Shown piece after piece: positions 1 to 21,671 of a stretch of 64,000 bases of DNA. The position numbers were made by a program, and so were the translations under genes. The DNA comes from Strigamia acuminata (lineage: Eukaryota > Arthropoda > Chilopoda > Geophilomorpha > Linotaeniidae): contig OX442320.1 of the NCBI GenBank assembly GCA_949358305.1, forward strand, positions 7,022,259-7,086,258, given 5' to 3'. The notes under the pieces were generated by a model. It did no database searches. It was not told where the DNA came from and worked only from the letters and a program-made list of their open reading frames with translations. Positions within the stretch are counted from its first letter, which is position 1, and every line of letters starts with the position of its first letter.

Positions 1-1142
1 TTGAGGGAAAGAGAACGAGAAAGTTCACCAACCAATGAATTGCCGCCCGTTGGAGTGTCGGCCTTAACGAACACGAGCAGCGCTCTCAATTTACTGGACG
101 TACGGACCGATTCCCCGCCGGACTACACCGATGTTCACATGCAAGCACCGCAAGAAAAAGCGAACGAACGGGATAACAATTTACCAACTTACGACGAAGT
201 GGAAAAGCAACCCGAGGTAGAGCTGTAACAAAAAAAAACAATGTGAACAATAGAAAACAATGCTTTGATTTTTGTCTATTTCCAGTGGAATTCGCAGCCC
301 GTGTTTGACATCACACCGCATTCGTCAGGGGAAGAGCCAGGACCGCAGTAAGCAAACCAAAATTCTCATTTACGCCACCTCAGAAAACAAAAAATACATG
401 ACACTCAGTATCAGCTATTTTTTGTTTTCTTTCAAGTACACTTCATTGAAGCAAGACATTTTTTTTTGCCCAAAAAAAATGGCGTTTGCACCAAAGTATG
501 AAGAAAAACGTGGAATTTATACAAAAAAAAAATGGAAAAAAATAGAATTTTATGGCCACAAAATCGGGGATGCAAGGGGTGCACGGCACTCGGACGACAG
601 GACCGATGGGACGGCATGGGCCTTGGGTGCGGCAGACTCTTGAGGGCGGCAGGTAGGGTGCAAAGTGTCATGAGCCATCCTTTGGACCCGGGCGTCAGAA
701 AAGCCAGAAACACCCCTGCTTAAAAAACCAAGCATCCAATTTGACACACGACACGCGTCTGACATCATTAAAATATCATTATTGGGTCCTCACGAACGAA
801 GCGACACCGTTCCGACAAATTCAACCATTCTAATGTTTTCACTTTTCTTTTCTGTAACATAGCGGCTCGTTCGGCGCGACCAGAGCTTTCGCCCCTTCCG
901 CCTCCGCCAAATCGCCGCCCTGGGAAGAGCGGGACTCATCGTTGACTTTAAGAACCGATGACCATCAATCGCAAAATCACGGCTACCACGTCGATTCTTC
1001 TGAAAGCGATGGACATACAAATTATGATTACCATTCCTTCGATTGTTCTAATAGCGATGGACATACAAATCATGATTATCATTCCTGCGATTCTTCTGCA
1101 AGCGATGGACATACAAATCATGATTATCATTCCTGCGATTAA
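1..1142 (+). CDS. G1: 3' part of a PPxY-tailed membrane protein (type A tail)
   Basis: Partial gene whose 5' exons lie outside the window. Exons read as <1-216, 286-347 and 863-1142; all joins are in frame. The first piece is the cytoplasmic tail with LPPV, PPDY and LPTYDEV, the last two being class I WW-domain ligand motifs. Exon 286-347 begins WNSQPVFDITPHSSG and ends at the donor CA|GTAAGC. The last exon (acceptor ATAG) carries SPPWEERDSSLTLRTDDHQ and then three tandem copies of a ~15-residue unit containing SDGHTNxDYHS before the stop. This C-terminal expansion is not shared by neighbours. AATAAA signals follow near 1250. The family is not recognised from any named protein. Domain reading is by eye and exon borders are inferred from GT-AG sites and paralogues. 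Confidence 0.75.
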
Positions 1143-1526
1143 TGATCATAATGTAAGAAGGGATTGGGAGAGATCAATACATATTTTCAAAATAATACAA
1201 ATAATATTTTCAACCAAGTTTTGTCGCAAATATCAGTCGCTCTAAAAAGTCAACAAATAAATAATAAATATGAAAATAATAAAATTAAAATTTTAAACAA
1301 ATACTTCATGTGAACTTTGACAACACGATCACAATCATCTTTCCATGATTTTGACATTTAATTTACTCAAAACTTAATTGTAATAAACGAGTCTTTCCTG
1401 CGACTAGAAAATAAACCAACATCTGAATGATTGCTAATGTTGTTTCTATGAATAAACTGCACAAAGATTACTCTTCATAACTCATTGATTGATTTGTTTC
1501 GCCATTCATTTGGTTGGCTAACTTTG

Positions 1527-1555
1527 CTTATCACAGATTAGCTATCAACTTGTTA
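1527..1555 (+). promoter_or_regulatory. Conserved GATA-type promoter block of G2
   Basis: CTTATCACAGATTAGCTATC followed by AACTTGTTAC. It is homologous to the block upstream of every array gene. The second TTATCT site is degraded here to TTACAT. Role inferred from position and conservation. Confidence 0.5.
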
Positions 1556-1618
1556 CATCAACACATTTCAAATTCAATACACCAGTAAGAAAAATACCTG
1601 TTTCTCCACAACAGAACA

Positions 1619-3104
1619 ATGGTACAGGCACTGGCACTCATCTTCATCATCGTCTTGGGTTGCCAGCCAACTTCAGCCAGTTCAGAAAGACGGAATATCA
1701 CAACCGGTCAACATAAATCGAGCCGAGAAGACTCCAACTCGCTTTCCCGCAATCGTCCTGAAGAATGGCCGCTCACAGCTGGAAACACTAAAATAGATAA
1801 ATCAGAAATTAAACAGCAATCAACACTACAACGCTACAAGAGCGTCGATGATATTTGCCAGACATGTTTAGGAATTGAAGACTGCCGATCAAAAAGGAGC
1901 AAATTTTGCAGTTCGCCATCTGCGAATTGTCCTTTATTTGTTAAAGATTTCGAGAGACACTGTATACATTACAGTAAGTGTCAATTCCCAATTTTTCAAC
2001 ACGTCATACATCATGTTCATTTATTTACTACATCACAGGGTGCACAATGACTTTGATTGCCAGGTTACGTGGAAAAACACGATGTGTAGTGTGAACAAAT
2101 GTTACTGCCAATGGAATTTCTTTTATAATTTTGATGCCAACAAGTGCAACTCTATAATTTGTAATATAAGTGTATCTGTTCAATCTTTTATACCAACTTT
2201 TCTCTATTTTTGTATTTTAGATGAACCCGAACAGACAACTTCACAAACAACTAGAACATATGATACATCGAACGTAAAGAAAATTTGAAAAAAAAATTAT
2301 AAATCATCACCTAATTTTCATCACTCAGTTGGCAATAGAGGCGTTTTCGGCGACCAGTGTGACACCGAGTACGATTGCAGTACGGTAGTTGGGCAAACTT
2401 GGTGTGTGTATCGAGTCAATGCGTTTGTCCAAACAATACGCAGCCAGATTACTCTTCTAAATTCTGCCGAAAAAATTGTAAGTACACATTAATACACGGC
2501 ATATGCTAGTGAATTAATTTTTTATCCAAACATGTATAACTTAGATGTCACTAATAACACCATCGTAGGGGTCGCAGCTTCCTGCCTTTTACTATTACTT
2601 TGCGTGGCGGTTTGCATTTCTGAGTGCAGGAGAAGGTAACTTGGGCCTTGGATACTTTCCTTTCTGTTATTGACATATTTGCTAGTTTAAGAATGTCCGG
2701 TCGATTTTCAAACGGCGATTCACGACCTGTTGGAACATCGGCCTTAACGGGCACGAGCAGCACTCTGGATTTAATGGGCGGACTAGCCGATTTGCCGCCG
2801 GAATACTCCGACGTTAACATGATAGCACCGCAAGGAAGAGCTGGCGAACTAAATAACAAATTACCAACTTACGATGAAGCGGTGGGGCAATCCGAGGTAG
2901 AGTAAATTCCGATTTTCTCGCAAACATTTCCAATTTCTTTCAATCCTTCTGCAGCCATTGTTTGTCATCACAGCGCACTCTTCGGGTGAAGAGCGGAACC
3001 CAGCGCTGACATTAAGAACCATTGACTCTCAACCGCAAAACCTCGTCGAGATTTCTGGAAGCAATGGACACTTAAATCATGGTTATGATACCTTCACCTT
3101 ATGA
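1619..3104 (+). pseudogene. G2: long-ectodomain, type B member with frameshifts
   Basis: Pieces homologous to G8-G10: 1619-1973, 2039-2160, 2221-2273, 2329-2477, 2545-2635, 2692-2896, 2955-3104. Exon 1 gives a signal peptide and reads straight through the region that is intron 1 in all paralogues (the GT donor is gone), then the first Cys module (CQTC...CIHY). The second Cys exon appears to lack one base just after its acceptor, because its cysteine frame (DFDCQ, YCQWNFFYNFD) no longer joins exon 1. The EB exon has another phase break near 2390-2400. The membrane exon and the PPEY/LPTYDEA tail are intact. The last exon has lost the usual TTCCAG acceptor and can use TGCAG at 2951-2954, in frame. 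The furin-like site is also lost (RNRPEEW). Best read as a recent pseudogene; assembly errors could mimic the frameshifts. Confidence 0.6.
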
Positions 3105-3552
3105 TCACAGTGTAAGAAGGGATTGATCAAGTAAATTAAAATCAAACAATCCGTTTTAACGAACAATGATTAACATTTACATAAACAAACTTGTGCGTAC
3201 ATTGCAATACCACCTAAAGTTTCTAGTTCGTCACGATTGTCGGGAGATGCAACACGTATTAAGTTTTCCACAAAATACAGCCAAATTATGGTAGTATTTA
3301 ATACTTCTTAAGCAATAAAAAATGTAAAAAAAAGTTTATACTGTAACTAGCAAATAAACCGACACATTTTAATGGCGGCGAATGTTGTTTTGTTTTTACT
3401 TACAAGTAAATCAATTAATAACCTTCGAATCAAGTTCACAATGCATTAATTCAAACATCCCGTCAATCTTCAGACATGCAGTGAATAAATCTTTCTAACT
3501 GATTAATTGATTTGTTTCGTCATTTATTCCACCCACCTTGCTTTTAGTTATT

Positions 3553-3584
3553 ACTTATCAGTGATTAGCTATCAACTTGTTATC
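3553..3584 (+). promoter_or_regulatory. Conserved GATA-type promoter block of G3
   Basis: CTTATCAGTGATTAGCTATC then AACTTGTTATCT, about 50-80 bp before the start codon. TTATCA and TTATCT read as TGATAA and AGATAA on the other strand, both matching WGATAR. Nearly identical in G4, G7, G8, G9 and G10. Confidence 0.6.
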
Positions 3585-3634
3585 TAAACAAATCCAATAC
3601 ATTTGTTGAGAAAAATATCTGTTTCCACAACGCA

Positions 3635-5295
3635 ATGGCACTAGCACTGGCACTCACCTTCATCCTCGTCCTGGGTGGCCAGTCAGCTTCAGCCAGTTCA
3701 ATCAGACAGAGTATCTCAAACGGGCAACAGAAATCGAGCAGAGAAGACCACAACTCTCTTTCCCGCAATCGCCGTGAAACGTGGTGGTGGGTGACCACGG
3801 TAGAATCAACTAAAATAGATAAATCTGATATCACACACAAGAAAATTAATTCTTCTTTTAATTTGACAGAAAGCAACAATAGATAAACGGAACGGTTACG
3901 GCAGATCATGTTACATCACGAGTGAGTGCCGTTGGTCAGGCATGGTGTGTGAATCGAGACAGTGCGTTTGTCCAGTCCTTAAGCAGCCAAATTACTACAC
4001 AAAAAAGTGCGATTACAAAGGTAAGTACACATTAATACACGGCGTGCGAGTGAATGCATTTTTGATCCGAATATGTACAACTCGTACAAAGACGGCGGAG
4101 AAGACCCCCTCTTAGAAATCAAAATAACAGGCATCTTTGTGGGAATATTCTTACTTCTTGTCGGGTTATGTCGGCTATCATTGTACGCTAGCAATTATCG
4201 GTAACTTGCGTCTTGGTTACTTTCCTTTCTTTATTTACATAATTGCGCGTTTTAGTCGTTCCGATCGGGACGATCTATCCCCACAGGAAGTTTTACGACC
4301 TTATAGAGAAGCGGAAGCTAGGGGTTCATCAACCATTGATTTGCCACCCGTTGGAGTGTCGGCCTTAACGAACGCGAGCAGCACTCTCGATTTACTGGAC
4401 GTACAGGACGATTTCCCGCCGGACTACACTGATGTTTACATGCAAGCACCGCAAGAAAAAGCGGACGAACTGGATAACGGATTACCAACTTACGGTGAAG
4501 TGGTGGAGCGACCCGAGGTAGAGTTGTGACAAGAAAAACAATGTGAACAATAGAAAACAATGCTTTGACGAGTTCAAGTTTTTATTTTTTTTTATTTTTG
4601 TCTATTTCCAGTGGAATTCGCAGCCCGTGTTTGTCATCACACCACATTCGTCAGCGGAAAAGCCATGGCCGCAGTAAGCAAATCGGGCGCCAGGACCAAA
4701 ATTCTAATTTCCGCCACCTCAGAAAACAAAAAAAAAACATTTGTTTTCTTTCAAGTCCACTTCCATAGGAGCAAGAGATTTGTTTGTTCATAAAATGGCT
4801 TTTGCAACAAAATATGAAAAAAAAGGTGGATTTTATACCAAAAAAAAATTTGAAAAAAATAGAATTTGGGTGCGGCAGGGTCTTGTAGTCGTCAGGTAGG
4901 GTGCAAAATCTCGAGTGCATTCGGGCGTCAGGGAACCCAGAAACACCCCTGCTCAGTTGTTAAGAAATCTTACAAAACCAAGCATGACACGAGTCTGTAT
5001 CACTAAAATATCATTGTTGGGTTCTCAAACACGAACGAAGCGACACCGTTCCGACAAAGTAATACAAATTTCACCATTCTCATGTTTTCGCTTTCCTTTT
5101 CTGTTAAATTACAGGTCGTTCGACGCGGCCGGAGCCTTCGCCCCTTCCGCCCCCGTCATATCGCCGCCCTGGGACGAGCGGGACTCATCATTAACTTTAA
5201 GAACCGATGACCATAAATCGCAAAATTACGGCTACCAGGTCGATTCTTCTGAAAGCGATGGACGTACAAATCATGTTTATGGTACCTTCGATTAA
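3635..5295 (+). CDS. G3: short-ectodomain PPxY membrane protein, type A
   Basis: Six exons: 3635-3799, 3870-4020, 4092-4200, 4256-4517, 4612-4673, 5115-5295. They sum to 930 nt (309 aa) with every phase consistent. Start MALALALTFILVLGGQSASA is a clear signal peptide. The pro-region ends NSLSRNRRETWWW, and RNRR fits a furin site. Exon 2 holds one EB-like module (SCYITSECRW...VCESRQCVCP...KKCDY). Exon 3 encodes the membrane helix (GIFVGIFLLLVGL). Exon 4 encodes the tail with PPDYTDV and LPTYGEV. Exons 5-6 give WNSQPVFVI and SPPWDERDSSLTL, ending YGTFD. Intron 1 is only 70 nt. The ancestral membrane-exon acceptor (TAG in G5) is mutated to TAC, and the next in-frame AG (ACAAAG) is usable. A cell-surface receptor or adaptor recruiting WW proteins such as NEDD4-family ligases is inference. 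Confidence 0.8.
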
Positions 5296-5710
5296 TCATC
5301 ATAGTGTAAGAAGGGATTGGGAGAGATCAGTACATATTTTCAAAATAATAAAAATAAAAATTTCAATCAAGTTTTGTCGCAAAAATCAATCGCTCTAAAA
5401 AGTCAACAAATAAATAATAAATATGAAAAAAACAAAATTTAAAATTTAAAACAAATACTTCCTGTGAACTTTGACAACACGATCACAATCATCTTTCCAT
5501 GATTTTGACATTTAATTTGCTCAAAACCGACACCTCTGAATGGCGGGTAATGTTGTTTCTATTTAGTATTTACAAGTTGAAATAAATCAATTAATAACGG
5601 TTAAATCTACTCCATAATATATTAATTCAATCCTAGGCTCAAATGTCATTCGTGCAATGAATAAATTGCATAAACTTTTATTTATTTAACTCACCCTGCT
5701 TTTAGTTATC

Positions 5711-5742
5711 AGTTATCAGTGATTAGCTATCAATTTGTTATC
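5711..5742 (+). promoter_or_regulatory. Conserved GATA-type promoter block of G4
   Basis: GTTATCAGTGATTAGCTATC then AATTTGTTATCT, 35-66 bp before the start codon. Confidence 0.55.
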
Positions 5743-5776
5743 TCAACACTTATCAAATACCTGTTTCCACAACGCA

Positions 5777-7291
5777 ATGGCACTAGCACCGGCATTCATT
5801 TTCATCCTTTTGCTGTGTTGCCAGCCAGCTTCGGCCAGTTCAGCAAGACGGAATACCGCAAACGGTCAACAAAAATGGAGTCGAGAAGACTACAACTCGC
5901 TTTCCCGCAATCGTCGTGATACGTGGTGGTGGCTGACAACAGTAGGAACAACTGAAATAAATAAATCTGATATAAAACCCAAAAAAAACATAATTCTGGT
6001 TTAAATTTGATAGAAACCATCAATAAGACAAGAAAGCCTGAACAGCTTCAGTAAAATTTGCCAGACATGCACAGAAAGGGGCGCATGCCTAAGAAGAATG
6101 GCAGAATTTTGTCGAGATGTGCCATGTCCTTTATTTCGTCTAAATAACGGAACATGTACACTTTACAGTAAGTGTCAAATTCAATTTTAAACAGATCATA
6201 CATTATCTTTATTTATTTATTATTACATCATAGTGTGCGACTATGACCGTAATTGCTCGGCTAAATGGAACTACTTGGAGTGTCATTTAAACCGATGTTA
6301 CTGCAAAAAACCTTCCGACCTTCACGTTTACGACCAGAAGTGTAAAATCGAGCGTATTTATCACCACACTCTTTTGTCATAAAACACCCCAAAATAAAAA
6401 TAATTCCGCACCCCTTTTCCCTCTATTTTTAATCAATTCCCACCCTAATTCCAGCTAAGTCTACCAATAAATTTTTTTTCTGGCTAAATATATCCAAAAA
6501 TTGACTGTTTTGGTCCAAAATTGACTGTTTTGGTCTAAAATTGACTGTTTTGGTCCAAAATTGACTGTTTTGGTCCAAAATTGAGTGTTTTGGTCCAAAA
6601 TTGACTGTTTTGGTCCAAAATTGGATATTGTGGACTAAAAATGAATTATTTGGGCCTAGATTTGAATTTTTAGTCCAATAAGCATTCAATTTTTGTGAGC
6701 GAATATATTAAATCAAAAACGCTGAGAACACATCTCGAGTGAATAAACAAAATTTGATAAAATATTACTAAATCATCTAATTTTCATCACTTAGTTCTCA
6801 GAGACTATTACCGCTACCGATGTGACACCAAAGATGATTGCCGCCATTGGAAAAGTATAGAATGTGTATCGGGAAAATGCGTTTGTCCAAAAAATTATCA
6901 GCCAAATCACGACACTAAAATCTGCGAATGTAAGTACACATTAATACACAGCGTAAGAGTGAATGAATTTTTCATTGAAATATGTGTAAATTAGATAAAC
7001 CTGACAACTCCCACGGCTTATTACTTGTCGTGGTAAGATTCATATTAGTTTGCGCGGTGGTTTACGCTTGTGTGGAGCTGAGGTCGAGGTAACTTGGATC
7101 TTGGCTACTTTCCTTATGTTATTTACATATATGCGTGTTTAATGTGTTCCAATCGTCACAGTTCATCAACCAATGATTTTCCGCCCGTTGCAATGTCGGC
7201 CTTAACGAACACGAGCAGCACTCGCGATTTACTGGACGGACAGGCCGATATCCCGCCGGACTACACCGATGTTTACATGAAAGCACCTTAA
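5777..7291 (+). CDS. G4: long-ectodomain member truncated in its cytoplasmic tail
   Basis: Exons 5777-5941, 6014-6167, 6234-6353, 6795-6929, 6995-7088 and 7162-7291 join in frame to 265 aa. There is a signal peptide, SRNRRDTWWWLTT, two Cys modules (CQTCTERGAC..., MCDYDRNCSA...), and an EB module (RCDTKDDCRHW...CVCP). The membrane segment is short and carries an internal Arg (LLLVVVRFILVCAVV). The Thr-rich linker exon of the other long forms is absent, and a 20-bp minisatellite occupies that intron. The tail exon has lost its usual acceptor (TTTAAT) and can start at CACAG 7154-7161. It keeps PPDYTDVYMKAP and then stops at TAA where paralogues have CAA, so LPTY is lost. Downstream tail sequence is further deleted and overrun by simple repeats. 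Possibly still translated as a short-tailed receptor, or an early pseudogene. Confidence 0.55.
6492..6640. repeat. 20-bp minisatellite in a G4 intron
   Basis: About seven copies of TTGACTGTTTTGGTCCAAAA with few changes. A degraded continuation reaches ~6680. Confidence 0.85.
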
Positions 7292-7339
7292 GGAAAAGCG
7301 GACAAACAGGAAAACGAATTACCAACTTACGAGGTAGAG

Positions 7340-7495
7340 TTGTGACAAGACAAACAATGTGAACAATAGAAAACAATGTGAACAATAGAAAACAATGCGA
7401 ACAATAGAAAACAATGTGAACAATAGAAAACAATGCGAACAATAGAAAACAATGTGAACAATAGAAAACAATGTGAACAATAGAAAACAGTTCAT
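7340..7495. repeat. 19-bp tandem repeat after the G4 tail
   Basis: About eight copies of ACAATGTGAACAATAGAAA. The unit is amplified from the single copy that follows the tail exon in G1 and G3. It is followed to ~7660 by GCGGTATTT-rich simple sequence that replaces the rest of the gene's 3' end. Confidence 0.85.
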
Positions 7496-8015
7496 GCTTT
7501 GATTTTTGTCTATTGCCAGTGGAATTCGCAGAATATGCGGTATTTGCGGTATGGTGCGGTATTTGCGGTATTGCGGTATACCGTTTGGCGGTATTTTTGG
7601 GAATACCGCGGTATTGCCTCGTGATAAAAATACTGCGGTACGATATACCGCTACCGCACACAAGGCTAGTAAGAAGGGATTAGTCGAGTAAATTAAAATT
7701 AAACAATCCATTTTAACAAACAATGATTAGCATTTGTATAAACAAACTTGTGCGTACATTGCAATGCCACCTTAAGTTTCTAGTTCGTCACGATTGTCGG
7801 GAGATGGCGAAAAAATCAATGCAACATGTTTTCTATAACTAGCAAATAAACCGTCACATCTGAATGGCAGCGAATGTTGTTTTGCTTTTACCTACAAGTT
7901 AAAACATATCATTTAATAACCTTTGAATCAAGCTCAAAATACATTAATTCAAACATCCAGTCAATCTTCAGATTTGTTTCGTCATTTATTCCACCTACGT
8001 TGCTTTTAGTTATTA

Positions 8016-8047
8016 CTTATCAGTGTTTCGTTATCAACTTGTTATCT
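8016..8047 (+). promoter_or_regulatory. Conserved GATA-type promoter block of G5
   Basis: CTTATCAGTGTTTCGTTATC then AACTTGTTATCT. The central GATTAGC is diverged, and the outer TTATCA and TTATCT are kept. Confidence 0.5.
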
Positions 8048-8096
8048 AAACGAATCCTTTACATCCGTTGAGAAAAATAGCTGGTTCCACAACGCA

Positions 8097-9384
8097 ATGG
8101 CACTAGCACTGGCACTCACATTCATCCTCGTCCTGGCTGGCCAGTCAGCTTCAGCCAGTTCAATCAGACAGAGTACCTCAAACGGTCAACAGAAATCGAT
8201 CCGAGAAGACCACAACTCGCTGTCCCGCAATCGTCGTGATATATGGTGGTGGGAGTGGGAGTGGGGGACGACAACGGTAGGATCAACTAAAATAGATAAA
8301 TCTGATATCACACACAAAAAAATTAACTCTTCTTTTAATTTTACAGAAAGCAACAATAGTTGGCGGTTACGGCAAGTCGTGTTACATCACGAATGATTGC
8401 AGCAGTTGGTTATGGTCAGGCTTGGAGTGTGAATCGAGAAAGTGCGTTTGTCCAATCTATAAGAAGCCAAATTACATCACACAAAGCTGCGAATACAAAA
8501 GTAAGTACACATTAATACACGGCGTACGAGCGAATGAATATTTGATCCGAATATGTAGAACTCTCTGACAACTCGAACAAAGACGACAGTAAAAGTAAAA
8601 GCCCCCTTACAGCCTTGGAATTGGGATTCGTCGTCGTGGTACCGTCCATTGTTTTTGTCGCGCTTCTTTGCGCAATATTGAGATATATCAAATATAGGTG
8701 ACTTGGATCTTGGCTACTTTCCTTTCGTTATTTACATATTTGCGTGTTTCAGATGTATCAATCGTAACGTTCGTTCCAATCAATCCCAAGAGGAGTTTAT
8801 GCGACGTTATATCGCAGCGAGGGTTATAATACGTATGATGGAGGAAAGGGCGGCCGAACGACAACGTTCATCAACCAATGATTTGACGCACGTTGGAGTG
8901 TCGGTCTTAACGATCAGGAGCAGCACTCCCGATTTGCCGCCGGACTACACCGATGTTTGCATGAGAGCATCGCAAGGAAGAGCAGACGAACAGGATAACG
9001 GATTACCAACTTACGGTGAAGTGGTGGAGCGACCCGAGGTAGAGTTGTGACAAGAAAAACAATGTGAACAATTGAAAACAACACTAAACTCTATTCCAAA
9101 AAGTAATTGAAATACTCCCATTGGATGATTGGTGCTCTAGTTCAGTTGTGTATAGAATATGATGCTGTTTTCAGATTCCAGTAGACTTGTGCGAAGATTT
9201 TCAATGCATTTATACTGGTGTTATGAATCTCCCAACCAATGGGAGTATTTCAATTACTTTTTGGAATAGAGTTTAGTTCATGCTTTGGCGAGTTCAAGTT
9301 TTGATTTTCTATTTCCAGTTGAATTCGCAGCCCGTGTTTGTCATCACACCGCATTCGTCAGGGGAAGAGCCAGGACCGCAGTAA
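8097..9384 (+). CDS. G5: short-ectodomain member with deleted 3' end
   Basis: Exons 8097-8276, 8347-8500, 8559-8697, 8753-9038 and 9319-9384; in frame to 274 aa if the last intron is retained (CAG TAA). Signal peptide, SRNRRDIWWWEWEWG (an acidic/Trp expansion after the furin-like site), one EB module (SCYITNDCSS...CVCP), and a membrane helix (LGFVVVVPSIVFVALLC). The tail is longer, with an inserted RMMEERAAERQRSS helix-like stretch, PPDYTDV and LPTYGEV. This copy keeps the ancestral TAG acceptor before the membrane exon. About 0.5 kb is missing between intron sequence at ~9720 and the last-exon remnant (CGTACAAATCATG), so the final acceptor and SPPW exon are gone. Two MITEs sit in the 3' part. 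Confidence 0.6.
9087..9273. mobile_element. MITE with ~40-bp TIRs and TA duplication, in a G5 intron
   Basis: Ends AACTCTATTCCAAAAAGTAA and its inverse, flanked by TA on both sides. The empty site is visible in G6 (AACACTAGTTCATGC). 187 bp. Tc1/mariner-type target choice. Confidence 0.85.
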
Positions 9385-9759
9385 GCAAATCGGGCGCCCG
9401 GACCAAAATTCTCATTTTCGCCACCTCGGAAAAGAAAAAATACATGACACTCACTCGTCAGTCTCAGCTATTTTTTCTTTTCTTTCAAGTCCACTTCATT
9501 AAAGCAAGACATTTTTTTTTGCTCAAAAAAATGGCTTTTGCAACAAAATATGAAAAAAAGGTGGATTTTGTACCAAAAAAAAATTGGAAAAACATTAGTC
9601 TCAGTTACAGGGGCATTTTAAACGGGGGTGCAAGGGGTGCACGGCACTCAGACGACAGGACTGACGGGGCGTCAAGAGCCTTGGGTGCGGCAGGGTCTTG
9701 GGGGCGATAGGTAGGGTGCAACGTACAAATCATGATTATGGTACCTTCGATAAATGATC

Positions 9760-10029
9760 GGGGCGTGTCATCTAGCGCGAAGAAATCTCACCGCGACACA
9801 ATCTACCGCGACACAATCTACCGCGACACAATCTACCGCGACTACGTATATTCTAGGTCTAATTCCTAAGAAGGGCTAACAAGGGGGGGCTGCGCCCCCC
9901 CTTGACCCCCCGCGAACCTAACCTTACTGGTTTTTTGATAAAAAACCATTTTTTTTGGAACATATTGTATCGTATTGTTGCGGTAGATGCGTGTCGCGGT
10001 AGATTGTGTAGCTCTAGATGTGGGGCCCC
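9760..10029. mobile_element. 270-bp inverted-repeat element with 8-bp duplication
   Basis: Flanked by AAATGATC on both sides, with imperfect termini GGGGC...CATCTAG and its inverse. Inside are CCGCGACACAATCTA repeats and a C-rich stretch that recurs at ~31.88-31.96 kb (CCTAAGAAGGGCTAACAAGG). The 8-bp duplication suggests a hAT-like origin. Confidence 0.7.
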
Positions 10030-11022: not shown

Positions 11023-11071
11023 AAACGAATCCTTTACATCCGTTGAGAAAAATACCTGGTTCCACAACGCA

Positions 11072-12010
11072 ATGGGACCGGCACTGGCACTCATCTTCAC
11101 GCTCGTCCTGGCTGGCCAGTCAGCTTCAGCCAGTTCAATAAGACAGAGTATCTCAAACGGTCAACAGAAATCGAGCCGAGAAGACCACAACTCGCTGTCC
11201 CGCAATCGTCGTGATACGTGGTGGTGGGCGACAACGGTAGGATCAACTAAAATAGATAAATCTGATATCACGCAGAAAAAAATTAACTCTTCTTTTAATT
11301 TTACAGAAAGGAACAATAGTTGATCGTGACAGTTACGGCACGTCGTGTTACATCACGAATGATTGCAGATTGTTATGGTCAGGCCTGGTGTGTGAATCGA
11401 GAAAGTGCGTTTGTCCAATCTATATGAAGCCAAGTTACATCACACAAAGCTGCGAATACAAAAGTAAGTACACATTAATACACGGCGTGCGAGTGAATGA
11501 ATATTTGATCCGAATATGTACAACTCTCTGACAACTCGTACAAAGACGACAGAAAAATCCCCCTTACAGCCTTGGAATTGGGATTCGTCGTCGTGGTAAC
11601 GTCCATATGTTTTGTCGCGCTTCTTTGGGTAATATTGAGATATATCAAATATAGGTGACTTGGATCTTGGGTACTTTCCTTTTGTTATTTACATATTTGC
11701 GTGTTTCAGATGTATCGATCATAACGTTCGTTTCAATCAATCCCCAGAGGAGTTTACGCGACGTTGTAGAGAAGCGAGGGCTATAATACGTATGATGGAG
11801 GAAAAGTCGGCCGAACGACAACGTTCATCAACCAATGATTTGACGCCCGTTGGAGTGTCGGTCTTAACGATCACGAGCAGGACTCTCGATTTACCGCCGG
11901 ACTACACCGATGTTTGCATGGAAGCATCGCGAGGAAGAGAGGACGAACAGGATAACGAATTACCAACTTACGATGAAGTGAAAAAGCAAGCCGAGGTATA
12001 CTCTGTCTGA
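11072..12010 (+). CDS. G6: short-ectodomain member interrupted by a MITE
   Basis: Exons 11072-11236, 11307-11463, 11546-11654 and 11710-11995, reading into the MITE to a stop at 12008-12010 (243 aa, ending AEVYSV). Signal peptide, SRNRRDTWWWATT, EB module (SCYITNDCRL...CVCP), membrane helix, PPDYTDV and LPTYDEV. Intron 1 and the EB exon are almost identical to G5. The membrane-exon acceptor is TAC instead of TAG, and the next in-frame AG is ACAAAG. If GAG|GTATAC is still used as a donor, the next exon must skip the broken acceptor TTCCGG and use TCGCAG before 12723, ending at 12776. The final type A exon is a fragment at ~12880-12997 without an acceptor. Confidence 0.6.
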
Positions 12011-12620
12011 CCTTAAGAGTAAAGAAAAACCCCCCATTCTTTGAGGCCTTTTCACTGGTGTAGTGATACCAAAAAGTAGAGCAATACACCAGGTTTTAAT
12101 AAAACCTTAGGTTTTATTAAGCCTAATAATCTTAAAATAAAGTAAATAAACAATGGTATTTTGATATGGCATTTTGGTATGGTACTATGGTACTTTGGTA
12201 TTGTGGTATGGTACTATGGTACTTTGGTATTGTGGTATGGTACTATGGTACTTTGGTATTGTGGTATGGTATTTTGGTATTTATTAAATACCAAAAATAT
12301 CAAAAATACCAAAAATACCAAAAATACCAAAAATATTAAAAATATTAAAAATACCAAAAATACCAAAAATACCAAAAATATTAAAAATATTAAAAATACC
12401 AAAAATACCAAAAATACCAAAAATACCAAAAATACCAAAAATACCAAAAATACCAAAATATCAAAATACCGTACCAAAATACCAAAATACCATTGTTTAT
12501 TTACTTTATTTTAAAATTATTAGGCTTAATAAAACCTGAGGTTTTTTTGGTATCACTACACCAGTGAAAAGGCCTCAAAAAAAGGGGGATTTTTCTTTAC
12601 TCTTAAGGTCAGACAGAGTA
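11999..12620. mobile_element. 622-bp mariner-like MITE with an amplified AATACCAAA core
   Basis: Long terminal inverted repeats starting TACTCTGTCTGACCTTAAGA, flanked by TA duplications (11997-11998, 12621-12622), inserted in GAGGTA^GAGTTG of G6. The centre is a large hairpin of TATGGTACTTTGGTAT against AAATACCAAA arrays. Subterminal CACTGGTGTAGTGATACC is shared with the element at 29,478-29,887, so both belong to one family. Confidence 0.9.
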
Positions 12621-13311: not shown

Positions 13312-13343
13312 ACTTATCAGTGATTAGTTATCTACTTGTTATC
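13312..13343 (+). promoter_or_regulatory. Conserved GATA-type promoter block of G7
   Basis: CTTATCAGTGATTAGTTATC then TACTTGTTATCT, 50-80 bp before the start codon. Confidence 0.55.
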
Positions 13344-13393
13344 TAAACAAATCCTTTACATCCGTTGAGAAAACTACCTGTTCCCACAAGGCC

Positions 13394-15254
13394 ATGGCAC
13401 TAGCACTGGCACTCATCTTCATCCTCGTGCTGGCTGGCCAGTCAGCTTCAGCCAGTTCAATAAGACAGAGTGTCTCAAACGGTCAACACAAATCGAGCCG
13501 AGATGACTCTAACTCGCTTTCCCGCAATCGCCGTGAAACGTGGTGGTGGGTGACAACGGTAGGATCAACTGAAATAGATAAATCTGATACCACGCACAAG
13601 AAAATTAATTCTTCTTTAAATTTGACAGAAAGCAACAAAAGTTGAACTTTATGGTTACGACAAGTCGTGTTATACCGATAGTGATTGCAGTTGGTTATGG
13701 TCAGGCCTGGTGTGTGAATCGAGACGGTGCGTTTGTCCAGTCCATAAGCGGCCAAATTACATGACAGAAAACTGCGATTACGAAAGTAAGTACACATTAA
13801 TACACGGCGTGCGAATGAATGAATTTTTAATCCGAATATGTACAACTCTCTGACAACTCCTATAAGACGACAAAAAAAAACCCCTCGGAAACTTCGAAAT
13901 AGGACTCATCGTCGTGATATCGATCGGAGCGATTGTCGGGATTGGTTGGCATTTTGTGGGCTATATCAAAGATAGGTAACTTGGATCTTAGCTACTTTCC
14001 TTCCGTTATTTACATAATTGCGTGTTTTAGTTGTTCCGATCGATCCCCAGAGGTAGTTTTACGACCTTATAGAGAAGCGGAGGCTAGGTTGCAGCAAAGG
14101 TGGTTCGAACAAGAAAGTTCATCAACCAATGGTTTGCCGCCCGTTGCAATGTCGGCCTTAACGAACACAGGCAGCACTCTTGATGTACTGGACGGACAGG
14201 CCAATTTCCCGCCGAACTTCACTGATGTTTACATGACAGCACCGCAAGAAAAAGCGGACGAACGGGATAACGGATTACCAACTTACGATGAAGTGGTAAA
14301 GCGACCCGAGGTAAAGTTGTGACAAGAAGAACAATGTGAATAATAGAAAACAATACAAGCTAAAGCTTTGACGAGTTCAAGTTTTGATTTTCTTTGATTT
14401 TTCTCTATTTCCAGTGGAATTCGCAGCCCGTGTTTGTCATCAGACCGCATTCGTCAGGGGATCGGCCAAGACCGCAGTAAGCAAATCGGGCGCCCGGACC
14501 AAAATTCTCATTTCCGCAACCTCAGAAAACAAAAAATACATGACACTCAGTCTCAAGTATTTTTTGTTTTCTTTCAAGTCCGCTTCATTGTAGCAAGATA
14601 TTTTTTTAGCTCAAAAAATGGCTTTTGCACCAAAATATGAAGAAAAAGGTGGATTTTATACCAAACAAAAATTGCAAAGGGTGCACGGCACTCAGACGAC
14701 GGGACCGATGGGGCGGTGAGGGCCTTGGGTGCGGCAGGGTCTTAGGGGCGGCAGATTGTGTGCAAAGTCTCATGTGGCACTCTTCGCACCCGGGCGTCAG
14801 AGAAGACAGAAACACCCCTGACCAGTTGTTAAGAAATCCTACAAAACCAAGCATCCAATTTGACACATGACACGCGTCTGACATCACTAAAATATCATTA
14901 TTGGCTCCTCAAACATGAACGAAGCGACACCGTTCCGACAAAGTAAAACGAATTCCACCATTCTAAAGTTTTCGCTTTTCTTTTCTGTTAAATTACAGGT
15001 CGTTCGGCGCGGCCGGAGCCTTCGCCCCTTCCGCCCCCGCCATATCGCCGCCCTGGGAAGAGCGGGACTCATCGTCGACTTTAAGAACCGATGACCATCA
15101 ATCGCAAAATCACGACTACCACGTCGATTCTTCTGCAAGCGATGGATATACAAGTTATGATTATAGCACCAATGATTATAGCACCAATGATTATAGCACC
15201 AATGATTATAGCACCAATGATTATAGCACCAATGATTATAGCACCTACGATTAA
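13394..15254 (+). CDS. G7: short-ectodomain PPxY-family protein, type A with NDYST repeats
   Basis: Exons 13394-13558, 13629-13785, 13867-13975, 14031-14310, 14415-14476 and 14999-15254; 1029 nt, 342 aa, phases consistent. Signal peptide, SRNRRETWWWVTT, EB module (SCYTDSDCSW...CVCP), membrane helix (GLIVVISIGAIVGIGW), tail with LRPYREAEARLQQRW. The first PPxY has become PPNF, so it should no longer bind a WW domain; LPTYDEV is kept. The last exon has SPPWEERDSS and ends in tandem NDYST units (five NDYST plus flanking YDYST and TYD), encoded by a 15-bp repeat at ~15156-15250. The only type A gene besides G3 with an intact 3' end and start in the window. Confidence 0.8.
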
Positions 15255-15587
15255 TGATCATAGTGTCAGAAGGGATTTGCCGAGTAAATTAAAATCAAAC
15301 AGTCCATTATAACGTACAACTGATTAATATTTATAGAAACCAACTTGTATGTCCAGTTCTATCTTGTTAAAAAACCAAACTGTGGTACCTCTTGTATATA
15401 ATTCTTAATTAACACAAATTAAATGGTGACTTATAGTTGTTTCTCTTTCGGTACAACTTTATACCACATTAATTCAAACATTAAGTCAATCTTCAGACAT
15501 GCAGTGAATAAATTGCACAAACTTCACTCTTTTTAACTGATTAATTGATTTGTTTTGACATTTTTTGGCTCACCTTGCTAGTTATTT

Positions 15588-15619
15588 GTTATCAGTGATT
15601 AGCTATCAACTTCTTATCT
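15588..15619 (+). promoter_or_regulatory. Conserved GATA-type promoter block of G8
   Basis: GTTATCAGTGATTAGCTATC then AACTTCTTATCT, 57-88 bp before the start codon. Confidence 0.6.
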
Positions 15620-15675
15620 CAAAACGTTTCAAATTCAATATACCTATTAAGAAAAAAACCCGTTGCTACAAAGCA

Positions 15676-17260
15676 ATGGCACTCGCACTGTCCCTCATTT
15701 TCATCCTTTTCCTCTGTTGCCAGCCACCTTCATCCAGTTCAGCAAGACGGAGCATCACAAACGGTCAACATCAATCGAGCCGAGATGACTACAACTCGCT
15801 GTCCCGCAATCGTCGTGATACGTGGTGGTGGCTGACAACGGTAGGTTCAACTAAAATAGATAAATCTGATATTAAACACATAGAAAAAATTTCTGTTTCA
15901 AATTTGACAGAAACCACCAAGACAATCCTTCGACGGCTACAAACACATTTGCCAGACATGCAAAGGAAATGCAAATTGCCTATTAGAACTGCGCACATTT
16001 TGCAGTTCACCATCTGCGAAATGTCCTTCATTTTTTCAAGATTTGAACGGATACTGTACATATGTCAGTAAGTGTCAATTTAATCAGGCTAAAATACATT
16101 TTATTTATTTATTTCTTACATTACATCATAGTTTGTAGCTCAGACGATTTTTGCCAGCCGTTTTATAAGTGGCGAAAATCGGAGTGTATTGGCGATTGTG
16201 CCTGTGAACTGGTTATCTTTAATAATTTTGATGACCAGACGTGTGAAGCCCTAAGTAATGCAAGTGTACCTATTTCATACTCTTATAGTTTCCACTATAC
16301 TTTTGTATTTTAGTTGAAATTGAAAACGAAAAGCCAACTTCAGCACCCACAACCACAACAACAACGACAACATACATCAAACGTGAATAAAATTTGAAGA
16401 AAAAAAAAATAATAAATTACCTAATTTTCATCATTTAGTTGACAACGAAGGCGGTTTCGGCGACAAATGTTTCACCAAGTACGATTGCCGTCGTTGGACC
16501 AACTTGGTGTGTGAATCGAGACAATGCGTTTGTCCTTACAATACGCGGCCTAATTTCATTGCTAATTTCTGCGAAAAAATTTGTAAGTATACATTAATAC
16601 ACGAGTGAATGATTTTTTTATCTAAATATGTTTAAATTAGATGTCATTAACAACTCGTACACACAGAGTGACATCAACTACATCGTAGGACTCGCCATCA
16701 CGGGCACGCTCATATTCGTTTGCGTGTTGATTTGCATTTGTATTAACAAGAGGAGGTAAATTATTTGATCTTGGCTACTTTCATTTCTGTTATTGACATA
16801 TTTGCGTGTTTAAGAAGGTCCGATCAATCCTCAAATGGCGATTCACGACCTGTCGGAACGTCGGCCTTAACGGGCACGAGCAGCACTCTGGAATTGATGG
16901 GCGGACTGGCCGATTTGCCGCCGGAATACTCCGAAGTTTACATGATAGCACCGCAAGGAAGAGCTAGCGAACTAAATTACAAATTACCCACTTACGACGA
17001 AGTGGTGGGGCAACGGCAACCCGAGGTAGAGTTCTGACGTTTAAATTTTCATTTAACTTACTTTGATTTTTGTCCTTTTCCAGTGGAATTCGCAGCCATT
17101 GTTTGTCGTTGCAGCGCATTCTTCGGGGGAAGAGCGGAACTCACCATTAACATTAAGACCCAACGACGCTCAACCGCAAAATCACGACCACCGTGCCGAG
17201 ACTTCTGAAAGCGATGGACAAATAAATCATGGTTACGTTAATGTTACCTTCACCTTGTGA
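15676..17260 (+). CDS. G8: long-ectodomain PPxY membrane protein, type B
   Basis: Eight exons: 15676-15840, 15911-16067, 16132-16254, 16314-16382, 16439-16582, 16641-16755, 16815-17025, 17084-17260; 1161 nt, 386 aa, all phases consistent. Order: signal peptide MALALSLIFILFLCC, SRNRRDTWWWLTT, Cys module 1 (CQTCKGNANC...), Cys module 2 (CSSDDFCQPF...CAC...), a Thr-rich stalk exon (TSAPTTTTTTTTY), EB module (CFTKYDCRRW...CVCPYN), membrane helix (IVGLAITGTLIFVCVLICIC), tail with PPEYSEV and LPTYDEV, and WNSQPLFVVAAHSSGEERNS ending TFTL. The tail-exon acceptor has a tandem TAAGAAG, so two in-frame 3' sites one codon apart are possible. The last part is one exon, without the type A intron. Confidence 0.85.
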
Positions 17261-17594
17261 TCACAGTGTAGGGAAGAAGGGTTTGATCAAATAAATTAAA
17301 ATCAAACAATCCATTATAACGCACAATTGATTAACATTTATAGAAACCAACTTGTATGTACAGTTTTTTCTTGTTAAAAAAACAAAACTGTGGTACCTCT
17401 TGTATATAATTCTTAATTAATACAAATTAAATGCTAACTTATAGTTGTTTCTCTTCAGTACAACTTTATACCACATTAATTCAAACATTGAGTCAATCTT
17501 CAGATATGCAGTGAATAAATTGCACAAACTTCACTCTTTTTAACTGATTAATTGATTTGTTTTGACATTTTTTGGCTCACCTTGCTAGTTATTT

Positions 17595-17627
17595 GTTATC
17601 AGTGATTAGCTATCAACTTCTTATCTC
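17595..17627 (+). promoter_or_regulatory. Conserved GATA-type promoter block of G9
   Basis: Same sequence as the G8 block, including TTATCA and TTATCT. It lies in an upstream segment nearly identical to that of G8. Confidence 0.6.
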
Positions 17628-17682
17628 AAAACGTTTCAAATTCAATATACCTATTAAGAAAAAAACCCGTTGCTACAAAGCA

Positions 17683-19676
17683 ATGGCACTCGCACTGTCC
17701 CTCATTTTCATCCTTGTCGTATGTTGCCAGCCACCTTCAGCCAGTTCAGCAAGACGGAGCTTCACAAACGGCCAACATCAATCGAGCCGAGAAGACTCCA
17801 ACTCGCTTATCCGCGATTCTCCTCATAATTTCTGGCCGATCACAACAGGAAAAGTATGATCAACTAAAATAGATAAATCTGATATTAAACACAAAGAAAT
17901 GCTTTTTCAAATTTGACAGAAACTACTAGAACAAACCTTCGACGGCTACAAATATAAACACACTTGCCAGACATGCAAAGGAAATGTAAATTGCCTATTA
18001 GAACTGCGCACATTTTGTAGTTCACCATCTGCGAAATGTCCTTCATTTTTTCAAGATTTGAACGGATACTGTACATATGTCAGTAAGTGTCAATTTCAAC
18101 AGGCTAAAATACATTATATTTATTTATTTCTTACATTACATCTTAGTTTGTGTCTCAGACGATCGTTGCCACTTTTATAAGTGGCGAAAATCGGTGTGTA
18201 TTGGCGCTTGTGCCTGTAAACTGGTTATCTTTAATAATTTTGATGACCAGACGTGTGAAGCCCTAAGTAATGCAAGTGTACCTATTTCATTCTTTTATAT
18301 AGTTTCCACTACTTTTGTATTTTAGTTGAAATTGAAAACGAAGAGTCAACTTCAGCACTCACAACCACAACACAAACAACAACAACATACATCAAACGTG
18401 AATAAAATTTGAAAAAATAAAAATAATAAATTACCTAATTTTCCTCATTTAGCCGAACAACCAACTTCAGTACCCAGAACACGAACAACTAGTACACAAA
18501 TTGAACGTAAACAAATTGATGGATTCATAAATCACCTCATTTTCATCATTTAGTTGACAACGAAGGCGGTTTCGGCGACACGTGTGACACCAAGTACGAT
18601 TGCCGTCTTTGGACAAACTTGGTGTGTGAATCTGGACGATGCCGTTGTCCTTATAATACGCGGCCTAATCACTTTTCTAAATTCTGCGAAAAAATTTGTA
18701 AGTATGCATTAATACACGAGTGAATGAATTTTTTTATCGAAATATTTTTAAATTAGACGTCATTAACTACTCGTACACACACATCAACTTCGTCGCAGGA
18801 CTCGCCATCTCGGGCACGATTATCGCTTGCGTGTTGATTTGCATTTGTGTGGGCAGGAGGAGGTAAATTATTTGATCTTGGCTACTTTCTTTTCTGTTAT
18901 TGACATATTTGAGTGTTTAAGAAGGTCCGGTCGATCTTCAAATGGCGATTCACGACCTGTCAGAACGTCGGCCTTAACGGGAACGAGCACCACTCTGGAA
19001 TTGATGGGCGGACTGGCCGATTTGCCGCCGGAATACTCCGATGTTTACATGATAGCACCTCAAGGAAGAGCTAGCGAACTAAGGGGCCGTCCATAAATTA
19101 CGTAACGCCAATTTTGGGCATTTTAGACCCCCTCCCCCCCTCTGTAACAAGGCCGTAACAAATTCCCAAACCCCCACCCCCCTAATTACGTAATAAAACT
19201 GAAATCACCCCCCGAAAAATTTTCAAAAATCAGTCTCAAAACTGCAATATTTTAAATTTTAAAACATTAAAAAAAATTTTTTCAAGGACCGTAACATTAT
19301 TGAGAACCCCCCCTCTCCCTCACTAATGACCTGTAACAAAATCTGAAACCCCCTCCCCCCCCTTGGAGCGTTACGTAATTTACGGACGGCCCCTAAATTA
19401 CAAATTACCCACTTACGACGAAGTAGTGGGGCAACGGCAACCCGAGGTAGAATTGTGACGTTTAAATTCAAATTTTCTTTGATTTTTGTCCTTTTCCAGT
19501 GGAATTCGCAGCCATTGTTTGTCGTTGCAGCGCATTCTTCGGGGGAAGAGCGGAACTCACCATTAACATTAAGAACCAATGACGCTCAACCGCAAAATCA
19601 CGACCACCGTGTCGAGAGTTCTGAAAGCGGTGGACAAATAAATCATGGTTACGTTAATGTTACCTTCACCTTGTGA
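17683..19676 (+). CDS. G9: long-ectodomain type B member with a MITE in the tail exon
   Basis: Exons 17683-17853, 17920-18082, 18147-18266, 18326-18397, 18453-18506, 18554-18697, 18757-18862, 18922-19446 (interrupted) and 19500-19676. The pro-region has lost RNRR/WWW (LIRDSPHNFWPITTGK). Two Cys modules are followed by two consecutive Thr-rich linker exons (the second, PEQPTSVPRTRTTSTQIE, is unique in the array), then the EB module (RCRCPYN variant), membrane helix and PPEYSDV. A 311-bp MITE at 19083-19393 then introduces the stop ...ASELRGRP, removing LPTYDEV unless spliced out. The last exon downstream remains intact, which points to a recent insertion. Confidence 0.65.
19083..19393. mobile_element. 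311-bp MITE in the G9 PPxY exon, TAA duplication
   Basis: Inverted termini GGGGCCGTCCATAAATTACG / CGTAATTTACGGACGGCCCC, flanked by TAA (19080-19082 and 19394-19396). The empty site is seen in G8 and G10. A 3-bp TAA duplication suggests a PIF/Harbinger-type source. Confidence 0.88.
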
Positions 19677-20010
19677 TCAGAGTATAATGACAAAGGGTTT
19701 CATCAAGTAAATTAAAATCAAACAATCCATTATAACGCACAATTGATTAACATTTATAGAAACCAACTTGTATGTACAGTTTTTTCTTGTTAAAAAAACC
19801 AAACTGTGGTACCTCTTGTATATAATTCTTAATTAATACAAATTAAATGCTAACTTATAGTTGTTTCTCTTCAGTACAACTTTATACCACATTAATTCAA
19901 ACATTGAGTTAATCTTCAGACATGCAGTGAATAAATTGCACAAACTTCACTCTTTTCAACTGATTAATTAATTTGTTTTGCCACTGTTTGGCTCACCTTG
20001 CTAGTTATTT

Positions 20011-20043
20011 GTTATCAGTGATTAGCTATCAACTTCTTATCTC
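20011..20043 (+). promoter_or_regulatory. Conserved GATA-type promoter block of G10
   Basis: GTTATCAGTGATTAGCTATC then AACTTCTTATCTC, 55-87 bp before the start codon. Confidence 0.6.
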
Positions 20044-20097
20044 ACACTTTTCAAATTCAATATACCTATTTAGAAAAAAACCCGTTGCCACAACGCA

Positions 20098-21671
20098 ATG
20101 GCACTCGCACTGTCCCTCATTTTCATCCTTTTCCTCTGTTGCCAGCCACCTTCAGCCAGTTCAGTAAGACGGAGCATCTCAAACGGCCAACATCAATCGA
20201 GCCGAGAAGACTCCAACTCGCTTATCCGCGATTCTCCTCTTAATTTCTGGCCGATCCCAACAAGAACAGTAAGATCAACTAAAATAGATAAATCTGATAT
20301 TAAACACAAAGAAAAAATTCTGTTTTAAATTTGACAGAAACCACCACGACAATTCAGCTACAAAGACATTTGCCAGACATGCAATGGACATGCAAATTGC
20401 CTATTACAACTGCGCACATTTTGCAGTTCACCATTTGCGAATTGTCCTATATTTCTTCTAGATTCGAAGGGATACTGTACATATATCAGTAAAGTATCAA
20501 TTCTCAATTTTTCAACAGGCTAAAATACATTATATTTATTTATTTCTTATAGTTTGTGTTCCAGACGATTATTGCCAGTTGTCGTGGCGAAACTCGGTGT
20601 GTAGTGGAAGCGAATGTCACTGTAAACAGGATTTCTTTTATAATTTTGATGCCCAGACGTGTGAATCCCAAAGTAATGCAAGTGTTCCTATTTCATTCTT
20701 TTATACAAACTTTCCACTACTTTTGTATTTTAGTTGAAATTGAAAACAAAGAGCCAACTTCAGCACCCACAACGACAACATACATCAAACGTGAATAAAC
20801 TTTGAAAAAAAAATAATAATAAATTACCTAATCATTTAGTTGACAACGAAGGCGGTTTCGGCGACACGTGTGACACCAAGTACGATTGCCGTCTTTGGAC
20901 AAACTTGGTGTGTGAATCGAGACAATGCGTTTGTCCTTACAATACGCGGCCTAATTTCATTTCTAGATTCTGCGAAAAAATTTGTAAGTATACATTAATA
21001 CACGAGTGAATGAATATTTTATCTAAATATGTTAAATTAGATGTCATTAACAACTCGTACACACACAATAACATCAACTTCATCGTAGGACTCGCCATCT
21101 CGGCCACGCTCATATTAGTTTGCGTGTTGATTTGCATTTGTGTGGGCAGGAGGAGGTAATTTTTTGGATCTTGGCTATTTTCCTTTCTGTTATTGACATA
21201 CTTGCGTGTTTAAGAAGGTCCGATCAATCCTCAAATGGCGATTCACGACCTGTTGGAACGTCGGCCTTAACGGGCACGAGCAGCACTCTGGAATTGATGG
21301 GCGGACTGGCCGATTTGCCGCCGGAATACTCCGATGTTTACATGATAGCACCGCAAGGAAGAGCTAGCGAACTAAATTACAAATTACCCACTTACGACGA
21401 AGTAGTGGGGCAACGGCAACCCGAGGTAGAATTGTGACGAGTTGTATAAAACACGTTTAAATTTAAATTTTCTTTGATTTTTGTCCTTTTCCAGTGGAAT
21501 TCGCAGCCATTGTTTGGCGTTGCAGCGCATTCTTCGGGGGAAGAGCGGAACTCACCATTAACATTAAGAACCAATGACGCTCAACCGCAAAATCACGACC
21601 ACCGTGTCGAAAGTTCTGAAAGCGACGGACAAATAAATCACGGTTATGTTAATGTTACCTTCACCTTGTGA
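20098..21671 (+). CDS. G10: long-ectodomain PPxY membrane protein, type B, end of the array
   Basis: Exons 20098-20268, 20338-20488, 20553-20672, 20734-20790, 20840-20983, 21041-21155, 21215-21425 and 21495-21671; 1146 nt, 381 aa, all phases consistent. The pro-region is SLIRDSPLNFWPIPTRT, without the furin-like site. Cys modules 1 and 2 (CQTCNGHANC..., CVPDDYCQLSWRNSVC...), a short Thr linker, an EB module, and a membrane helix (FIVGLAISATLILVCVLICIC) followed by GRRRR-type stop-transfer residues. Tail with PPEYSDV and LPTYDEV. Tail and EB exons are nearly identical to G8, which suggests recent duplication or gene conversion. Confidence 0.85.

Follow-up and report, generated by a model that had tools for sequence, protein, structure and literature searches.

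The window analysed here, 64,000 nucleotides of Strigamia acuminata chromosome 7 (contig C9, 7,022,259-7,086,258), carries nine whole head-to-tail units and the tail of a tenth (G1) from a tandem gene array. The products of the array are predicted to be type I single-pass membrane proteins with a cysteine-rich EB-type module in the ectodomain and a PPxY motif followed by LPxY in the tail. The array as a whole spans window positions -19,655 to 21,671 (C9:7,002,603-7,043,929). Using tblastn with nine exon probes across 114 kb (the window and 50 kb upstream of it), we count 18 complete first exons and, at -12,831, one fragment; tail exons of the PPxY type number 15, with none in the upstream copies u-19655, u-17272, and u-14352. 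Nine of the complete first exons, G1's included, lie with the fragment upstream of the window (-19,655..0; C9:7,002,603-7,022,258; loci L008 and L009), in a part that contains two PPxY-less copies and one mosaic. An earlier note on the window had described ten tandem paralogues, a count that stands once the tail piece at 1-216 is added, but the array is really about twice as long. The 30 kb preceding it gave no tblastn match to the exon probes. In the genome searched (237,517,015 bases in 157 contigs; the genome note, PMC10556566, counts 158 scaffolds), the matches to tail probes at E 0.01 (at least 21), to first-exon probes at E 0.1 (at least 16), and to ectodomain probes at E 0.1 (at least 31) all fall on C9 in the array stretch.

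The units in the window belong to a long and a short class:

1..216, plus strand: G1, PPxY/LPxY tail exon, with its first exon at -624 (tblastn); open only with a shifted acceptor.
1619..2905, plus strand: G2, long class, broken; EB exon in two frames (matches at 2334 and 2390), tail exon open.
3635..4678, plus strand: G3, short class; exons 3635-3799, 3870-4020, 4116-4200, 4256-4517, 4612-4678.
5777..7350 (end approximate), plus strand: G4, ectodomain of the long class, tail of the short type; TAA between PPDY and LPTY.
8097..9385, plus strand: G5, short class; exons 8097-8276, 8347-8500, 8613-8697, 8753-9038, 9319-9385.
11072..12010, plus strand: G6, short class; exons 11072-11236, 11307-11463, 11570-11654, 11710-11995 (or through to 12010).
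13394..14481, plus strand: G7, short class; exons 13394-13558, 13629-13785, 13903-13975, 14031-14310, 14415-14481; PPNF replaces PPxY, LPTY present.
15676..17260, plus strand: G8, long class, eight exons: 15676-15840 signal peptide and pro-region with RNRR; 15911-16067 CQTC module; 16132-16254 EB-like; 16314-16382 threonine linker; 16439-16582 EB; 16641-16755 transmembrane (TM) helix; 16815-17025 PPEY/LPTY; 17084-17260 C-terminal.
17683..19676, plus strand: G9, long class; an insert breaks the tail.
19083..19393, plus strand: insert in the G9 tail exon resembling a miniature inverted-repeat transposable element; 311 bp, terminal inverted repeats of about 27 bp, TAA target duplication, ends placed by eye.
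20098..21671, plus strand: G10, long class; exons 20098-20268, 20338-20488, 20553-20672, 20734-20790, 20840-20983, 21041-21155, 21215-21425, 21495-21671.

The exon models of G8 and G10 are joined by GT-AG introns of 49-70 bases, the phases of which keep a single frame. The long class runs from signal peptide and pro-region through a six-cysteine module that we call CQTC, an EB-like module, a threonine-rich linker, the EB module, the TM helix, and the PPEY...LPTY exon to a C-terminal exon. The short class (G3, G5, G6, and G7) is without exons 2 to 4 and has a single EB module; its introns measure at most 117 bases, except one of 280 in G5, and in G3 they are GT-AG with phases 0,1,2,0 and an open frame. 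The common plan read earlier from the letters (signal peptide, EB module, one helix, two-motif tail) is thus carried by the GT-AG exon models, but in two classes rather than one. Hydropathy profiles (Kyte-Doolittle, 19 residues, threshold 1.6) place an internal hydrophobic helix in 9 of 10 array models and in the neighbouring gene G11, set out below. An N-terminal hydrophobic stretch likewise exceeds the threshold in nine of the ten, with u-6824 falling below, and in G11. The furin consensus is R-x-[KR]-R; a furin-type RNRR site occurs in 8 of the 18 copies, seven of which are among the first ten described (G1-G10), and G10 has none, so the furin-like pro-region described earlier is not common to all ten. 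The last donor sits within the apparent C-terminus 'EVEL', which makes two alternative C-termini possible; a further exon, spliced in from a donor such as GAG|GTAGAG, may extend the tail, for example at 21,495-21,671. We rejected as coding a conserved read-through past the EB exon (KYTLIH...), which opens with a good donor and has no shared frame into the TM exon.

Ten of the 18 units are uninterrupted, among them the upstream copies u-6824 and u-5345, which read through. Four are partly modelled (u-19655, u-17272, u-14352, and u-11814), and four are broken: G2 by a frameshift, G4 by the TAA in its tail, G9 by the insert, and u-2767 by a stop immediately past the TM helix. Three of these, G2, G4, and G9, are among the ten copies of the earlier note. 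At the insertion point, G10 has a single TAA where G9 has the TAA duplication; TAA duplications are characteristic of a class of transposons.

In the ectodomain, all 17 last-module EB exons analysed (of 18; G2 excluded) have six cysteines, spaced C-x5-C-x6-9-C-x4-C-x-C-x12-C. Pfam names EB (PF01683) for each of the eight different proteins scanned, with every score under the curated cut-off of 24.3 bits and the best at 23.4 (G11, E 6.5e-5), 21.0, 18.4, and 17.0 bits. As a reference, we built a profile from 12 EB-pattern exons of three other genes of the same genome, in regions with Pfam EB above cut-off; against it, the array EB exons align with an hhalign probability of 92.9 (E 3.8e-7). We assign the last module to the EB type because of this alignment together with the Pfam naming, and the earlier identification of the main module is upheld. 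AlphaFold2 models the EB exon well (mean pLDDT, its per-residue confidence score, 86.1 over eight sequences). The CQTC module (15911-16067 and homologous exons) was tried as a further EB module and rejected, with an hhalign probability of 1.0 against the same profile. It matches no Pfam family at E <= 1 in three long-class proteins, its AlphaFold2 fold is not confident (mean pLDDT 68.3), and by sequence criteria it is a different module outside recognised families. No combination of EB, helix, and PY tail was found in five 10-kb regions around seven Pfam EB matches of the genome, in which open frames of at least 50 amino acids were inspected for PPxY or the EB pattern; since the genome-wide Pfam EB list does not include the EB exons of the array itself, such a scan may overlook other weak EB genes. 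Venom or other secreted peptides were considered as well, and the helix and PY tail speak against them.

Selection was gauged from paralogues as the ratio of nonsynonymous to synonymous rates (dN/dS; NG86, codon bootstrap), with 17 of 18 EB exons (G2 excluded) and 13 of 15 tails (G4 and G9 excluded; G2 and u-2767, broken elsewhere, included). In these tails each proline of PPxY is kept in 13 of 13 and its tyrosine in 12, while the leucine, proline, and tyrosine of LPxY are kept in all 13. The only PY loss among them is PPNF in G7, which is also the exception among the ten uninterrupted array models, the other nine having two PY motifs. The tail motifs give dN/dS 0.48 (0.22-1.05) and the remaining tail 0.98 (0.67-1.50), with 0.86 (0.61-1.33) for the whole. 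In the ectodomain, the EB exon gives 1.04 (0.68-1.64) overall, 1.46 (0.90-2.55) in the short class, 1.08 (0.64-2.07) in the long class, and 1.20 (0.78-1.86) without its cysteines; CQTC gives 1.36 (0.74-2.81, 10 sequences), with subsets at 1.88 (0.46-5.61) and 0.87 (0.25-3.96). Earlier, looser sets had returned 0.77 for the first exon, 0.80-0.90 for EB with EB-like, 0.80-0.85 for the tail, and 1.5-1.6 for CQTC. The firm signal is a contrast: the cysteines and nearly all PY codons are retained amid a freely changing neighbourhood, and this retention is not chance. Only the cysteines and PY motifs look constrained. The conserved tails of the earlier note are thus conserved in their motifs, whereas outside them the tail changes about as fast as the rest. 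Its fast-changing ectodomain agrees with ratios near or above 1, but with 1 inside every interval adaptive diversification of the ectodomain is only suggested.

Exon exchange and loss have also shaped the array. We read u-11814 as a long/short mosaic: as far as about -11,020 its nearest units are long-class (best matches 89-100%), and past that point short-class (80-99%), except in two windows where G4 is best, placing the switch at the EB exon or directly past it. A second mosaic may be G4, which joins a long-class ectodomain to a short-type tail; its tail match at 7163, which contains the one TAA stop, has 77% identity to the short tail probe and 56% to the long (tblastn). In u-19655 and u-14352, the PPxY part is missing, leaving a frame that passes from the TM exon directly into terminal-exon sequence (only that piece was joined).

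Most start codons of the family have a cluster of WGATAR sites upstream. Across the 114 kb, 15 places have at least three sites within 60 bp, and 14 of these lie just upstream of family start codons, namely at 13 of the 18 array promoters and at that of G11, which has four sites. The upstream regions average 3.06 sites per 173 bp, compared with 0.34 for the remaining sequence (242 windows, G11 promoter included) and 0.78 in base-shuffled upstream sequence, and each of the 18 array upstream regions has at least two. In arthropods, GATA factors control genes of blood cells, fat body, and gut.

20012..20042, plus strand: example of a WGATAR cluster, upstream of the G10 start codon.
3555, 5706, 8017, 10963, 13314, 15589, and 17596, plus strand: starts of the other WGATAR clusters in the window.
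22422..22480, plus strand: four WGATAR sites upstream of G11.
22587..25496, plus strand: G11; exons 22587-22719, 23827-23925, 24232-24378, 25050-25206, 25271-25496.

G11, the neighbour of the array, lies past the range covered by the earlier note and has a signal-like stretch, two EB-type modules, a TM helix, and the motifs PPGYDDV and PPSYEEAL, with intron phases around its EB, TM, and tail exons equal to those of the long class (1, 1, 2). By its tail it is single-copy, since the genome search matches itself alone; its second module aligns weakly with the array EB profile (probability 49.5, E 1.7e-4). We consider G11 a likely founder or sister gene of the array.

The tail finds candidate readers in the same genome: WW and HECT exons occur together at no fewer than three loci (C3 24.322-24.325, C5 5.671-5.674, and C6 4.587-4.592 Mb), as expected of NEDD4-family ligases. 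On C1, a WW exon and HECT exons are separated by 12 kb at 32.30-32.31 Mb.

Several known systems resemble the array in part. Comm (Commissureless), yeast Rcr, PRRG, CYYR, and Shisa have been grouped as short TM proteins with L/PPxY motifs (PMC5578492), and the predicted layout of the array products fits the Comm/PRRG/Rcr group. Commissureless of Drosophila (PF15957) is likewise short and single-TM with PPxY preceding LPxY in the tail, and the LPSYDEAL of u-8751 is the core of Comm's GLPSYDEAL. Its two PY motifs lie 5 residues apart (220-223 and 229-232), however, against 18 in G8 and G10, and it is described as having neither signal sequence nor extracellular cysteines, whereas the array has an N-terminal hydrophobic stretch and the EB cysteines. 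Pfam Comm is matched, and weakly so (E 0.12, 13 of 27 bits), by G5 alone among the eight proteins scanned. The two PY motifs of Comm are reported to recruit Nedd4 and take Robo1 to late endosomes and lysosomes (PMC12101832). The vertebrate transmembrane Gla proteins (PRRG) also combine an extracellular module, one TM helix, and a tail with LPxY and PPxY, and PRRG4, which has been called a functional homologue of comm, is reported to cause midline crossing when the background is sensitised (PMC5578492). They differ in having a Gla domain where the array has EB and in that LPxY precedes PPxY; no Gla family was matched at E <= 1 in the eight proteins scanned with Pfam. Shisa-like/STMC6, CYYR1, and WBP1/VOPP1 share a Cys-rich (mostly six-Cys) ectodomain, one TM helix, and a PY tail, but the C*C*CC*CC pattern of Shisa-like/STMC6 is not in the array EB exons.

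Yeast Rcr1 and Rcr2 (RCR, PF12273) likewise place a TM helix before a PY tail, and Rcr1 binds Rsp5. RCR is the best Pfam lead for the TM helix and tail of G8 (E 1.4e-4, 23.0 bits), and it appears in four of the eight proteins (23.0, 20.2, 19.6, and 13.3 bits), always under its cut-off of 27.8; the family is, however, fungal. Rcr proteins are not known to have an EB ectodomain. A parallel of another kind is Dscam of Strigamia maritima, where centipede surface receptor genes have been multiplied instead of splice variants (PMC4244043), which shows that centipedes diversify surface proteins via paralogues. Dscam is unrelated, being built of immunoglobulin and fibronectin type III domains, and its paralogues need not all act in immunity (PMC4244043).

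In the protein database, where a match depends on shared 5-residue words, the array alignment found no relative at E 1e-3 among the best 8,000 candidates, a list that may have been swamped by words of the threonine-run linker; G11 found none at E 1e-2 with all of its 2,368 candidates scored. The G11 negative is informative, and that of the array less so, because an actin control shows that arthropods are present in the database. A literature search, with most subscription papers outside its scope, found no paper on such an EB-transmembrane-PPxY family. As far as tested, then, the family is undescribed as the earlier note had it, but the logic of its PY tail is already known from Commissureless, PRRG, Rcr, CYYR1, and Shisa. 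The novelty lies in its EB ectodomain, in the multiplied copies, and in the members that are tail-less or mosaic.

From these features we propose a model in which the array encodes a tandem, lineage-restricted set of small type I membrane proteins whose PY tail recruits NEDD4-family ligases and whose ectodomain recognises varied partners, a proposal that we regard as about evenly balanced. Its parts differ in strength: the products are very probably surface membrane proteins, and recruitment of NEDD4-family ligases by the tail is probable, whereas ligands that change (microbial or parasite) rather than a fixed host partner are plausible at somewhat below even. The model would involve the following steps:

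(i) PPxY and LPxY in the tail would bind the WW domains of NEDD4-family HECT ligases.

(ii) The receptor, together with a partner held by its ectodomain, would be ubiquitinated and pass to endosomes and lysosomes, by analogy with what is reported for Commissureless and Robo1.

(iii) Each ectodomain would bind a different or changing partner on a GATA-regulated surface, that of blood cells, fat body, or gut.

(iv) The ectodomain would vary since the partner varies, which is the weakest step.

(v) PPxY-less copies might bind without triggering removal and so act as decoys.

In its fullest form, the model describes a centipede-specific recognition system of GATA-driven EB-knot receptors diversified through point changes, gain or loss of modules, and exon recombination, with NEDD4-ligase output, decoys, and G11 as the conserved founder; we advance this form only tentatively, and its conjunction of parts is on the unlikely side. 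The surface recognition system with a shared output that was first proposed gains from PY motifs that look constrained, but recognition itself we can still only infer. If the model is true, a diversified receptor family would have recruitment of a ubiquitin ligase as its common output, a logic comparable to that of arrays with a common immune signalling tail, and this in myriapods, where receptors are little studied. The PY-tailed short membrane adaptors known so far are single genes or small families tuning host receptors.

A number of observations weigh against the model. All dN/dS intervals include 1, that of the motifs too, so relaxed constraint is possible, and the estimates come from paralogues with visible recombination, not from orthologues. 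Four of the 14 judged units are broken, G1 and u-8751 stay in frame only with shifted splice sites (picked to preserve the frame), and u-5345 has no helix above the hydropathy threshold. The loss of PPxY in u-19655 and u-14352 is probably a single event, their mutual similarity being judged by eye, and u-17272 has no recognised tail whatsoever. Five of the 18 promoters are without a three-site GATA cluster, and the array promoters are paralogous, not independent, so independent support comes down to the array and G11. PPxY and LPxY are general WW ligands, beyond NEDD4 ligases. According to PMC5578492, Nedd4 is not required by Comm for Robo1 removal, contrary to PMC12101832.

The leading alternative, which we nonetheless hold to be unlikely, is that the products are trafficking adaptors, in which the TM helix and ectodomain would hold a particular host membrane protein and the PY tail would bring NEDD4, as is reported of Commissureless with Robo1. 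The array would then serve dosage or a changing cargo instead of recognising outsiders. It draws on the layout of Comm, PRRG4, and Rcr, on the other PY motif of Comm, which also precedes LPSY (PMC5578492, PMC12101832), and on weak Pfam matches of the TM helix and tail, to RCR in two of five entries and to Comm in one. The signal sequence and extracellular cysteines that Comm reportedly lacks count against it. Cargo adaptors are usually few and conserved, whereas here 18 fast-changing copies fall into two ectodomain classes.

Rather unlikely is decay of the array, in which constraint on recent tandem duplicates has relaxed and few members, perhaps G8, G10, and G11, are still functional. Ratios near 1 across most of the protein, the four broken units, and the transposon-like insert in G9 all fit such decay, but six cysteines in every EB exon analysed and LPxY in every tail, set against dN/dS of about 1 elsewhere, do not, nor do ten models that read through and GATA clusters retained at 13 of 18 promoters.

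Signalling by the PY tail via a WW protein that is no ligase (Yorkie/YAP or WWOX type), an outside ligand then controlling transcription and not turnover, accords with the generality of WW ligands and with 25 genome WW matches of which only some adjoin HECT exons, but is very unlikely, since two PY motifs with acidic and hydrophobic residues after LPxY fit the Comm/NEDD4 type better.

Elsewhere in the window, a 1,466-codon open frame on the minus strand is enclosed by identical direct repeats (37288-38047 and 43100-43859) spaced 5,812 bp apart; for its last 1,450 codons, Pfam gave no match at E 0.1. With 490 bp of the repeat as query, the genome yielded at least 41 matches (36 full-length and 99-100% identical; 40 of 119 candidates scored), and among the matches listed many are paired about 5.75-5.8 kb apart. 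As observed, this is a young element resembling those with long terminal repeats, without recognised gag or pol. An open frame at 32979-33242 on the minus strand has a weak, sub-cut-off EF-hand match (E 0.0076), and short tandem repeats at 6480-6650, 12280-12510, and 58215-58650 yield long open frames that are probably spurious. In the wider genome, a divergent actin gene (L051, C8:9457322-9459222) exists alongside conventional actins, and TTAGG-type repeats, which fit an arthropod, occupy one terminus of C1 and lie close to a terminus of C9.

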